Origin: Candidatus Tectomicrobia bacterium
GTDB taxonomy: Bacteria > UBA8248
Reading direction: 5' to 3'
Length of the DNA: 64,000 nucleotides
NCBI GenBank assembly: GCA_016192135.1
Contig: JACPUR010000035.1
Location: forward strand, 159,056-223,055
Shown here: in pieces, positions 4,173-8,180 of the stretch
How positions within the stretch are numbered: the first letter of the stretch is position 1
Layout of the letters: each line of letters opens with the position of its first letter
Position numbers and translations under genes: made by a program
Notes under the pieces: model-generated
The model's database searches: none
Told to the model about the DNA's origin: nothing
What the model saw: the letters and a program-made list of their open reading frames with translations, nothing else

Positions 4173-5270
4173 TTAAGAGGCCAGCGTTTCTTCCGTCTGA
4201 TAGCGCTTCTGGATTTCCTGGACCTCGTCCAGGCGTTCGAAGAACACGTCCAGCACCTGCGGGTCGAACTGGGTCCCCCGGCCCTCCCGGAGGATCTCCA
4301 GCGCGTGGTCGCGGGGGAAGGCCTCCTTGTAGGGGCGCTGGCTCGTGAGGGCGTCGTAGACGTCGGCCACCGAGCAGATGCGGCCCCACAGCGGGATTTC
4401 CTCCCCGCCGAGGCCGTTCGGGTAGCCCTCGCCGTCCCACCGCTCGTGATGGGAGAGGGCGACCTTCTCGCCGGCCCGGAGGAGCTCCGAGGAGGAGCTG
4501 CCCAGGATGCGGCCGCCGATGACGGTGTGCTGCTGCATGATCCGCCACTCGTCCGAGTCGAGCTTGCCGGGCTTGAGCAGGTTCTTGTCCGGGATGCCCA
4601 GCTTGCCCACGTCGTGCATGGCGCAGGCGTGGAAGACCGTTTCCACCTCGCTGGGGGGCAGCCCGCAGCCCCGGGCGATGAGCGCCGCGTAGCGGCTCAT
4701 GCGCTTGACGTGGGCGCCGGTCTCCTTGTCCTTGTACTCGGCCGCGACGGCCAGCCGGTGGATGGTCTCTAGGTGGGCATCGTGGGCGAGCCGCTGGGCC
4801 TGGACCATGTCGGCCAGCGCCTTGCGGAGGGTGGCGGTGCGCTTCTCCAGCATGTCCTCGAGCTCGGAGCGCGTCTTCTTGATCTCGTCCTGCGCCTCCT
4901 TCATCTTGAGGAGGAAGGACATGCGCACCGAGAGCTCGGTGAAATCGACGGGCTTGGAGATGAAATCGTGGGCCCCGACGCGGATCGCGCGGATGCGGTC
5001 GTCCTTGCCGCCGTGCCCGGTGACCATGAGGACGGGCAGGTCCGCCGTCTCCTCGTCGGCGCGCAGCTGCCGCACCACCTCGAAGCCGTCGATGCCGGGC
5101 ATCACCACGTCGAGGAGGACGAGATCGCAGCCCAGGCGCACCTTGGCCAGCGCCTCGAAGCCGTCGCGGGCGTCCTCCACCTCGTAGCCGAGCGATTCCG
5201 CCATCGTCTTGAGGAGAAGGCGGAACCGCGTATCGTCGTCCACGATCAGAACGCGCTTCGGGTACTTCAT
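4173..5270 (-). CDS. Response regulator: receiver plus HD-GYP phosphodiesterase
   Basis: A two-domain, 365-residue cytosolic regulator. Receiver domain 5-122: acidic pocket D11-D12, phosphoacceptor D54, T84, K106. A short coiled coil (about 125-165) leads to an HD-GYP domain (165-355) with H187, the H219-D220 pair in AMHDVGKLGIPD, H248, HHE at 274-276, GYP at 282-284 and D303. All expected metal ligands are present, so cyclic-di-GMP hydrolysis to GMP is likely. ATG 5270 is preferred: AAGGA lies about nine bases upstream, while the ATG at 5279 abuts it. No histidine kinase is encoded nearby. A cysteine-module protein follows 21 bases downstream. Upstream is a GCCGATAA element. Confidence 0.93.
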   Translation of the reverse strand: MKYPKRVLIVDDDTRFRLLLKTMAESLGYEVEDARDGFEALAKVRLGCDLVLLDVVMPGIDGFEVVRQLRADEETADLPVLMVTGHGGKDDRIRAIRVGAHDFISKPVDFTELSVRMSFLLKMKEAQDEIKKTRSELEDMLEKRTATLRKALADMVQAQRLAHDAHLETIHRLAVAAEYKDKETGAHVKRMSRYAALIARGCGLPPSEVETVFHACAMHDVGKLGIPDKNLLKPGKLDSDEWRIMQQHTVIGGRILGSSSSELLRAGEKVALSHHERWDGEGYPNGLGGEEIPLWGRICSVADVYDALTSQRPYKEAFPRDHALEILREGRGTQFDPQVLDVFFERLDEVQEIQKRYQTEETLAS

Positions 5271-5571
5271 GGGCGGCATTCCTTGCACCTTGCGTACCAA
5301 ACCAGCCGCACGCGCGGAAAAACCCGCACGGGAACCTGAGGTGATCGCCTCGGCGGACGGCCTCATCTTGTACTCTTGCTTTATCGGCGGGGGAAGGGTT
5401 TCCTTAAGTCCGTTTTTGCCGATCCGAGAAGAAGGTCACAATTTAATCATTCCTTCATTTCGAGGAGAGGTTCCCATCGTCCCGGCGTGAAAGGACGGAG
5501 AATCGTTCGTTAATCCGGCGTATCGCGGAAGTGTCCGAAGCTTGGGGAGTGTCGAGTCTGGAGGAAACGCG
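5271..5571. other. 301-base divergent intergenic region
   Basis: This region separates the HD-GYP regulator (minus) from the RidA gene (plus). It is visibly more AT-rich at 5395-5465 than the genes around it. On the minus strand it contains a sigma28-like element (5381-5406). No convincing plus-strand promoter with proper spacing was found, and no open frame in it looks like a gene. Confidence 0.6.
5381..5406 (-). promoter_or_regulatory. sigma28 (FliA)-like promoter of the HD-GYP regulator
   Basis: On the minus strand GCCGATAA (5388-5381) equals the sigma28 -10 consensus exactly. TAAGGAAA (5406-5399) lies 10 bases upstream; the -35 consensus is TAAAGTTT with an 11-base spacer in E. coli, so only TAA.G matches there. 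A transcript would start about 100 bases before ATG 5270. No flagellar gene lies in the window to support a motility regulon. Confidence 0.35.
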
Positions 5572-6113: not shown

Positions 6114-8180
6114 ATGGCGCGCCGACCCAGGGATCCCAAGGCTCGAATCGAGGCCCTCGGCCAGCGGATGGAGAAAGTCCCGTCCTCTCCGGCCTTTTTC
6201 CCGCTGGCCTCGCTCCTCTGGCAGCAGGGGGACGCCCCCCGCGCGGAGAAGTTCCTGCGCGCCGGCCTCGAGGCGCACCCCGCGTATTCCGCCGCCCGGG
6301 TCCTGCTGGGGGAGATCCTGCTGGCGATGGATCGCCCGGAGGAGGCCGCTGAAGAATTGGCGGCCGCCGTCCAAGTTTCGCCGTGGAACCTCCAGGGCCA
6401 GCGCCTGCTCGCCGACTGTCTCCACCGCGCGGGCGACGAGGCGGGGGAGCGCAAGGCGCTTCGCATCGCCGCCATGTTCGACTCCTCCGACGCCGGGGCG
6501 CGGGCCCTGCTCGAGGAGGCTCCGAGGCCGGCTCCGGAGGCGAAGCGCGCGCGTCCGGAGGCCGGGGAGGAGGCGCCCGCCCCCGTCGCCACTCCGTCGC
6601 TCGCGGAGCTCTACACGTCCCAGGGCCACCACGCCCAGGCCGCCGAGGTGTACCGCCAGCTTCTCCGGAAGGAGCCGGGGAACGCCGAGTGGAAGAAGAA
6701 GCTCGGCCTCCTGGAGGAGCGCCTCGCCCCCGGCGCCTCCCCGCCCGGGCCCCCCGCCTCCGCGGTCCCGGACCTCGATTTTGATCTCGAGGAAGAGATC
6801 GCGCCCGGGGCGCGGAGCGGGGAAGAAAAATCCCCCGCGCCGGCCCCCGCCCTCGACGACGACCTGGATGCCCTGCTGGGCGAGGCGGACCGGGCCCAGG
6901 CGGCGCTCCCGGCCCTCGATCAGGAAGACGGCGATCTGGCGCTCGAGATCGCGGAGGAGCCGAAGGCCGGCGGGGCGGCACCCGGCGCCCCCGCGGGAGA
7001 GGCCGCCCTGGAGGACGATCTGGAGGCTTTCCTCGAGATGGAGGATGAGCCGGCCGGAGCGGCCCCTGCGCCTCCCGCGGCCTCCGGTCCGAAGGGGGCC
7101 GCGCCCGGCGGGGAGCTCGACGATCTGGAAGGCCTGTTCGCGGGGGCGGAGGAGGAGCCTGACGCCGCTCCTTCTCCAAAACCTCCTCAAGCGGCGCTTC
7201 CCACGGCGGGCGCGGAGGACGATCTGGACCTGGACGCGCTGTTCGCGGCCGAGGAGGAGGGCGCCCCGGCGGCGGCTCCTCCGGTGTCTGGGCCTCCGGC
7301 GCCGGGCAGGATGGCGCCTGTCCCCGAGGCGGTGTCCGGCGAGGAGCTGGAGAGTCTGTTCCTCGAGGACGAGGAGGGGGAATCCGTCCCCGCGCCTCCC
7401 CAGGCCCAAGCGGCCCCGCCGGCGGCCGCGCCAACCGAAGAGTTGGATTTCGATTTGCTGGAGGAAGAGGAAGCGGGGGCGAAGCCTTCCGCTCCCGCCG
7501 AGGCGGCGCTCCCGGCCGGGGAACCCGATGAGCTGGACCTCGGAGCGTTGTTCGAGGAAGAGGAAGACGAGGACGCCCCGGCGCAGGCGGCTTCCGCTTC
7601 CCTGGGGGCCGCGGACGGCGAGGCGATCCCGGATGAGGAGCTGGCGGGCCTCTTCGCGCCGGAGGAGGACGAGGCCGCGCCCGCCGCCCCGCGGGCCCGG
7701 CCGGAGGGGGAGGATGCGGCCGTCCTCGACCTCGACCTGGAAGCGGAGCTGCTGGAGGAGGACCTGAGCCTCCAGGCGGAGCCGGGCGGGGCGGAGGAGG
7801 CGGGAGACATCCTCCCCGGGGAAGAAGCGGCTCCCGCCGAAGCCCCGCGCGAATCCCGGGTGCCCGAGGCCGCCCCGGCCAATGGCGCCGAGATGGATCC
7901 CTTCCTCCGGAACCTCATCGGGCTCTACGTCGAGGAGGGGAACCTCCCCCAGGCGCTCGACCTGTGCCGCAAGGCGCTGGCCCTGGGCCCGCCCCCGGCT
8001 TGGCTCGCGGGGCGGATGCAAGAGATCGAGGGCCGGCTGGCGGAAGGGTTGCGGGAAGGCCCCAAAGGGGATAAGGAGGGGGGGGTCCGCTCCTTGTCTC
8101 CCGCCGAAGTGGTCGAACGCCTGGAAGACTGGCTCCGGGCTCTTCAGCGCCGCAAGGCGAGGATGCCCGCGAGCCAATAG
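6114..8180 (+). CDS. TPR protein with a long acidic repeat-motif region
   Basis: A 688-residue protein of unknown function without signal peptide or membrane segment. Residues 25-130 and 160-200 form TPR-like helical pairs (for example [21 protein letters not shown]). Residues 205-590 are a disordered linker rich in Ala, Pro and Glu. It carries nine or ten short acidic-hydrophobic motifs of the form [DE][DE]L-x-x-LF, 30-50 residues apart. Residues 595-680 form another TPR-like pair and end in [20 protein letters not shown] 6114 is the first start after the promoter at 6037-6065 but has no clear Shine-Dalgarno. This looks like a multivalent scaffold. FimV-like hubs share the general design (TPR plus acidic linker) but no homology is claimed. 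Transketolase follows after 68 bases. Confidence 0.82.
6768..7763 (+). repeat. Array of acidic DDLxxLF-type peptide motifs
   Basis: Within the 6114-8180 protein the motifs are at residues 219-228 (LDFDLEEE), 247-257 (DDDLDALLG), 299-310 (EDDLEAFLE), 334-344 (LDDLEGLF), 368-382 ([12 protein letters not shown]), 409-421 ([12 protein letters not shown]), 442-453 ([12 protein letters not shown]), 472-484 ([13 protein letters not shown]), 506-520 ([13 protein letters not shown]) and 538-550 ([13 protein letters not shown]). Peptide sequence is conserved more than DNA sequence, so this is a selected short-motif array and not a recent tandem duplication. Confidence 0.75.

Follow-up and report, generated by a model that had tools for sequence, protein, structure and literature searches.

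Conserved acidic short motifs arrayed in the disordered linker of a TPR protein from Candidatus Tectomicrobia

Why would a bacterial protein carry the same short acidic peptide many times over in a linker that otherwise drifts? The question is raised by a gene in a 64,000-nucleotide stretch of the 3.92 Mb genome of Candidatus Tectomicrobia bacterium (contig JACPUR010000035.1; hereafter the window). A preliminary description had reported ten copies of a [DE][DE]LxxLF peptide between TPR ends, likened the peptide to the CheY-binding N-terminus of FliM, and proposed many identical docking sites for one partner. We asked which copies are real, whether the peptide itself is selected, how the array arose, and what it could bind.

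Architecture of the array protein and selection on the motif

The array gene encodes a protein of 688 residues whose parts, all on the forward strand of the window, are as follows.

6114-8180, forward strand: open reading frame of the array protein, 688 aa, with TPR at the N-terminus, an acidic motif linker and, at the C-terminus, a TPR hairpin followed by a helix
6135-6725, forward strand: folded N-terminal TPR domain, residues 8-204 (Pfam TPR; AlphaFold2 pLDDT mostly about 90-97)
6741-7886, forward strand: disordered acidic Ala/Pro linker, residues about 210-591 (AlphaFold2 pLDDT nearly all <50; composition)
6768-6800, forward strand: related but different acidic element at the linker start, residue 219 (conserved as FDMDFEEEL and FDVDFEEEI in the congeners)
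6861-6878, forward strand: motif copy 1, the founder, DLDALL, residues 250-255 (position aligned in 14/14 orthologues)
6921-6959, forward strand: weak, poorly conserved acidic element, EDGDLALEI at residue 271 (congener alignment)
7017-7034, forward strand: motif copy 2, DLEAFL, residues 302-307 (pattern; congener alignment)
7122-7139, forward strand: motif copy 3, DLEGLF, residues 337-342 (pattern; congener alignment)
7227-7244, forward strand: motif copy 4, DLDALF, residues 372-377 (pattern; congener alignment)
7344-7361, forward strand: motif copy 5, ELESLF, residues 411-416 (pattern; congener alignment)
7440-7466, forward strand: degenerate copy ELDFDLLEE, residues 443-451 (slot missing in both congeners)
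7536-7553, forward strand: motif copy 6, DLGALF, residues 475-480 (pattern; congener alignment)
7638-7655, forward strand: motif copy 7, ELAGLF, residues 509-514 (pattern; congener alignment)
7719-7763, forward strand: related acidic element near the linker end, residue 538 (conserved as LDLDMEVELEEGDL and VDLEAELEEEDL in the congeners)
7899-8054, forward strand: C-terminal TPR hairpin with the helix after it, residues 596-647 (Pfam TPR_1 at 604-625; AlphaFold2)
8100-8162, forward strand: C-terminal amphipathic helix, residues 663-683 (AlphaFold2 medium confidence; invariant residues)

Pfam confirmed TPR at both ends of the protein (TPR_14 6e-15, TPR_19 1.4e-11), and a fold search of the PDB returned mostly generic TPR proteins. 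The linker is as Ala/Pro-rich and disordered as had been described, with 27% D/E, 38% A/P, 3% K/R and 16% hydrophobics, and it is unstructured in an AlphaFold2 model built on a shallow alignment of 14 orthologues. The orthologues of two congeners are full-length, 64% and 60% identical to the array protein and free of internal stops, and a literature search found no publications on this TPR array family. The C-terminal helix, in which V666, E671, W673, L674, R679 and R680 are invariant among 10 orthologues, keeps the pattern V..LE.WL..L.RRK family-wide and could be a membrane or partner contact.

The strict pattern [DE][DE]LxxLF fits three copies exactly (residues 336, 410 and 508), while the relaxed pattern [DE][LF]xx[LF][LF] occurs seven times in the linker against 0.19 expected (2000 shuffles; p = 0.0005, the floor of the test). 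The array is therefore real and its motif exceeds what composition predicts, but the consensus first given was too narrow and a count of ten is reached only when degenerate elements (residues 219, 271, 442 and 538) are included. Among 54 distinct copies from the array-bearing orthologues the consensus is [DE][LF][DE][SAG][LI][LF]x[DE], extended to [DE][DE][LF][DE][SAG][LI][LF]x[DE][EA]. Positions left free by the search pattern are also constrained, with an acid at +1 in 94% of these copies, a small residue at +2 in 94% and an acid at +6 in 83%, and about half carry an extra hydrophobic residue at -3 that would lengthen the same helix face. By pattern search the array gene is the densest motif cluster in its own genome, where lone matches elsewhere lie mostly in antisense-looking or unrelated frames.

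Comparison with the two congeners supports selection on the motif itself. They keep the core L/F residues of the seven copies at 19/21 and 21/21 positions; of the remaining hydrophobic linker residues, 14/39 and 12/39 are identical (Fisher p = 4e-5 and 5e-8). The contrast is somewhat inflated, since an aligner tends to pair one motif with another when the linker is of low complexity. Core conservation also exceeds that of the folded TPR domain, where 0.79 and 0.77 of aligned positions are identical. About a third of the conserved core positions have changed codon, and the DNA of the window array no longer shows tandem repeats at the spacing of the motifs, bearing out the earlier statement that peptide conservation exceeds DNA similarity. 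Free drift of the L and F positions at fixed spacing, named beforehand as the observation that would speak against the motif, is not seen within the genus.

Origin and copy number of the motif across the family

The gene is present in 16 of the 18 genomes of the phylum sample, and the nearest public relatives (L021 to L033) come from records labelled Candidatus Tectomicrobia and Nitrospinota. The preliminary description had proposed comparing motif number between species; among orthologues this number proved to range from 0 to 16. By the broad pattern there are 9-16 copies in genus g3, 7-8 in the window's genus (g1), 2 in g6, 1-2 in g2, and none in any of the seven genomes of g5, which we call array-less. 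The founder peptide is aligned throughout the 14 orthologues analysed, with D252 invariant and E257 nearly so. Its g5 version is ENLDLIAGEVKGE, and no other window of the g5 linker is conserved as well (0.94 vs a mean of 0.68). In the AlphaFold2 model the founder falls in a low-confidence helix (249-260). The simplest history suggested by these alignments is a single ancestral peptide that expanded in some lineages.

The array of L009 (g3) contains in-frame tandem repeats of 147 bp (3.9 copies, 91%) and 138 bp (2.3 copies, 82%), and that of L031 (g3) contains in-frame repeats of 78 bp and 126 bp. Since such young repeats persist in relatives and the DNA of the window array has decayed, arrays grow by in-frame duplication, after which the DNA diverges and the peptide stays; the old copies in the window have kept their peptide, not their DNA. 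In the acidic linkers of L009, L031 and the distant relative L102, whose unit is 120 bp in 4.2 copies, the young in-frame duplications (78 to 147 bp) encode repeat peptides that differ by lineage.

These duplications also speak for reading the linker as an acidic entropic spacer only, in which slippage multiplies a motif that is carried along without function. Its hypervariable length fits that reading, as do the quite different repeats in the acidic linkers of distant relatives. In the window and its congeners, however, similarity between copies has decayed at the DNA level and the rest of the linker drifts while the hydrophobic core stays, and we regard a pure spacer as improbable.

The family works without an array in g5, so the array is an elaboration and not the core function; the TPR domain is equally conserved there and must do its work independently of the array. 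This bears on the idea that the motifs dock intramolecularly or between like molecules, in the grooves of the TPR domain, and so cause auto-inhibition or build a homotypic condensate. Short peptides are common ligands of TPR grooves, F29 and W36 are conserved and should face the groove by TPR register, and stickers between acidic spacers would suit a condensate. Yet array-less g5 keeps the TPR domain just as strictly, with both F29 and W36, and AlphaFold2 places no copy with confidence. We set self-docking aside as very unlikely after two AlphaFold2 models gave no confident docking. One orthologue, L022:1705-3810, lacks 15 residues of the second TPR through either a real deletion or an assembly fault.

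The gene order eno, FG-GAP-like protein, SDR, RidA, array gene, tkt is conserved down to g5, and in g1 and L031 this block is followed by ftsE, ftsX, envC and ctpA. One gene of the window interrupts the order.

4173-5366, reverse strand: response regulator with HD domain (HD-GYP; PF13487, PF00072), between SDR and RidA (Pfam)

This receiver gene has no counterpart between SDR and RidA in g5 or in L021, a congener, where eno, SDR, RidA and tkt remain in place; in L022 it lies beside RidA.

More distant relatives (L087-L104), in another phylum that is probably Desulfobacterota, lie between aroB and aroQ/pepQ/efp/accBC. They share the N-terminal TPR, a variable acidic linker, a 'T[IL]AE[LI]Y..QG' TPR and an L..WL..[IL] C-terminus with the array protein, but the linker precedes the second TPR block and its repeats are other or absent. 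No described function was found in the literature for this distant TPR family beside aroB/aroQ/efp. Another acidic repeat design occurs in the distant relative L062 (G125), whose linker consists of repeated SDLSDQSDASDLVSDVLDRSQAEEIAAKEEPVQPEP units. A conserved small protein that often lies beside the distant relatives (L093:6653-7270, reverse strand) has no Pfam match. A pilQ-type secretin lies near the distant-relative genes in several genomes. Two functional links were considered and dropped. On visual inspection a small protein next to the distant-relative genes resembled roadblock proteins, which suggested a Roadblock/LC7 link; Pfam gave no match, and PF03259 is absent from every relative in the array family. 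A PilT-family match exceeded the cut-off in no genome of the array family, which leaves a type IV pilus link without support.

Known scaffolds and candidate partners

The preliminary description knew of no family with this design, which was too strong: in HubP and FimV, polar landmark proteins of Gammaproteobacteria, a disordered acidic region whose acidic repeats vary in number likewise goes together with TPR at the C-terminus (PMC12918733, PMC8789113). Judged by these published descriptions, the array protein shares with them an extended acidic disordered region containing short helices, a repeat number that shifts between close species, and the C-terminal TPR, and in HubP/FimV partners bind the acidic modules (PMC12918733, PMC8789113). 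The array protein differs in having an N-terminal folded TPR and a defined short motif and in lacking LysM and transmembrane segments. Neither Pfam nor NCBIfam found a LysM domain, no membrane segment was seen (the chain starts in a TPR helix, and the linker is poor in hydrophobics), and the FimV C-terminal domain TIGR03504 matched neither the window's genome nor the family f1 relatives, with no match above cut-off anywhere. The acidic disordered region with variable repeats is present, but the array protein is closest to HubP/FimV in design without being one of them.

Paxillin LD motifs (LDxLLxxL) offer a second comparison, with several acidic amphipathic helices in a disordered scaffold whose hydrophobic faces dock while the acids meet a basic rim (PMC7703752). 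The array protein likewise carries, in a disordered scaffold, several copies of a short acidic motif that would form an amphipathic helix. However, paxillin is eukaryotic and without homology to it, and the array motif is not a paxillin-type LD motif because a hydrophobic residue stands at +7 in only 7% of the 54 copies, the usual residue being E or A. The array is real and selected, and we read the protein as a new variation on a known type of multivalent scaffold.

On balance we lean towards reading the array protein as a cytosolic multivalent docking scaffold with equivalent linker motifs and TPR ends, probably one that grips many copies of a single partner. The folded TPR ends would hold something conserved family-wide, and the disordered acidic linker would present short linear motifs, equivalent to one another, in an array that differs by lineage. 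We infer that every copy binds the same partner and folds on binding: the peptide would turn into a short amphipathic helix as its hydrophobic face (0, +3, +4) enters a groove of the partner, where the flanking acids would meet basic residues around the groove. Many copies on one flexible tether would raise avidity and local partner concentration, in the way that HubP holds partners on its acidic modules. No motif copy was docked with confidence in the two AlphaFold2 models, which rest on the shallow 14-row alignment. The partner candidates, in order, are a non-chemotactic receiver domain and a MinD/ParA-type ATPase.

The first candidate follows from FliM, whose N-terminal EIDALL peptide binds CheY (PMC9126983, PMC6946799). 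If the motifs docked a response-regulator receiver in this style, the array would titrate or cluster a phosphorylated regulator. The likeness to FliM holds at the core: phi-[DE]-[SA]-L-[LF] matches both EIDALL and the QEEVDALL of the FliM of the same genome, which begins MNQILSQEEVDALL. The FliM peptide, like the array motif, is seen as a short acidic amphipathic helix with a phi-D-A-L-L core. The likeness ends outside it, since the LSQ context of FliM occurs in 0/54 array copies, the array has many copies in mid-protein, and it is found also in genomes without detectable FliM. FliM was found in g1 and g6 only and CheW in g1, g2 and g6; both went undetected in g3 (two genomes 97-98% complete), which has the longest arrays. 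Chemotactic CheY is therefore an unlikely general partner: it does not fit g3, and the receiver gene next door is not conserved either. The adjacent receiver HD-GYP protein (4173-5270), which the preliminary description had proposed to model with the motif, is unsupported as the partner because its gene is not a conserved neighbour. The motif class is moreover generic, and unrelated pockets bind such helices. Docking of some receiver domain, though it heads the candidates, seems to us unlikely.

For the second candidate, the protein would be a soluble analogue of HubP that positions an FlhG-like or ParA-like ATPase. This is conceivable because the N-terminus of FliM is reported to mediate the interaction of FlhG with FliM/N (PMC12826062). 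In addition, the acidic cytosolic modules of HubP, whose architecture the array protein parallels, are described as the main binding sites for its partners (PMC8789113). Against it, a MinD/ParA-type ATPase is no conserved neighbour of the array gene, and the array protein is without the LysM and membrane regions by which HubP is positioned; we consider this partner rather improbable.

A second protein with the motif and its meaning

A scan of relatives with the refined motif found a second motif cluster in another gene of one of them (G003), and orthologues were recovered from the window's own genome and G002, G004, G007, G008 and G012, in the array genera g1, g2, g3 and g6. These proteins begin with a zinc ribbon, continue as a long acidic linker and, if the sequence is complete, end in an RDD membrane domain (Pfam matches of 7e-18 and 2.6e-14). 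They are unrelated to the TPR array protein, though encoded in the same genomes.

L123:4099-6321, forward strand: zinc-ribbon/RDD protein of the window's own genome (G000:C34), outside the window (motif and Pfam)
L124:2596-4605, L125:3947-6046 and L127:1837-3987: zinc-ribbon/RDD proteins in relatives
L126:2714-4924, reverse strand: zinc-ribbon/RDD protein in a relative
L106:3151-4140: zinc-ribbon protein cut by the contig end, RDD unseen

Their linkers carry copies of the motif class (EDFDSLLEE, EDLAALFADE, DELDALLNE and, in L114, SQADLDALLGG, the one copy with an SQ context), although the strict motif is sparse in the window's genus, where the refined pattern gives 0 in L113 and L115. They also carry repeated W-motifs (DDMWAEAFAEQEA; DDMWAEAFAEQ type), which Pfam identifies as FliN_N at 43.7 bits (2.5e-11) in L124, 38.3 in L127 and 24.8 in the own genome, with a cut-off of 24. 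The EIDALL-type peptide and the FliN N-terminal W-motif are best known from the flagellar switch. Two flagellar switch peptides are thus combined in one protein, a point in favour of the receiver reading, yet the protein is also found in g3 genomes without detectable FliM. None was recovered from the seven array-less g5 genomes. Joint absence of the array and the zinc-ribbon protein marks a single lineage split and so counts as about one event, a weak correlation.

This companion protein is the most promising new lead. A flagellar-switch-like peptide code (FliM-N-like DLDALL, FliN-N-like DDMWAEAF) might serve as multi-copy docking sites for a shared non-flagellar partner on two unrelated scaffolds, one a cytosolic TPR protein and the other a zinc ribbon/RDD membrane protein, also in species without a flagellum, though we hold this to be a long shot.

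If the motifs do dock one partner, the orthologues with 0, 1-2, 7-8 and 9-16 copies form a natural valency series, which would allow the evolution and effect of valency to be studied in a bacterial disordered scaffold. From the companion protein it also seems that neither the EIDALL-type peptide nor the W-motif of the FliN N-terminus is confined to the flagellar switch, and whether the two have a receptor in common is a question that can be tested directly.
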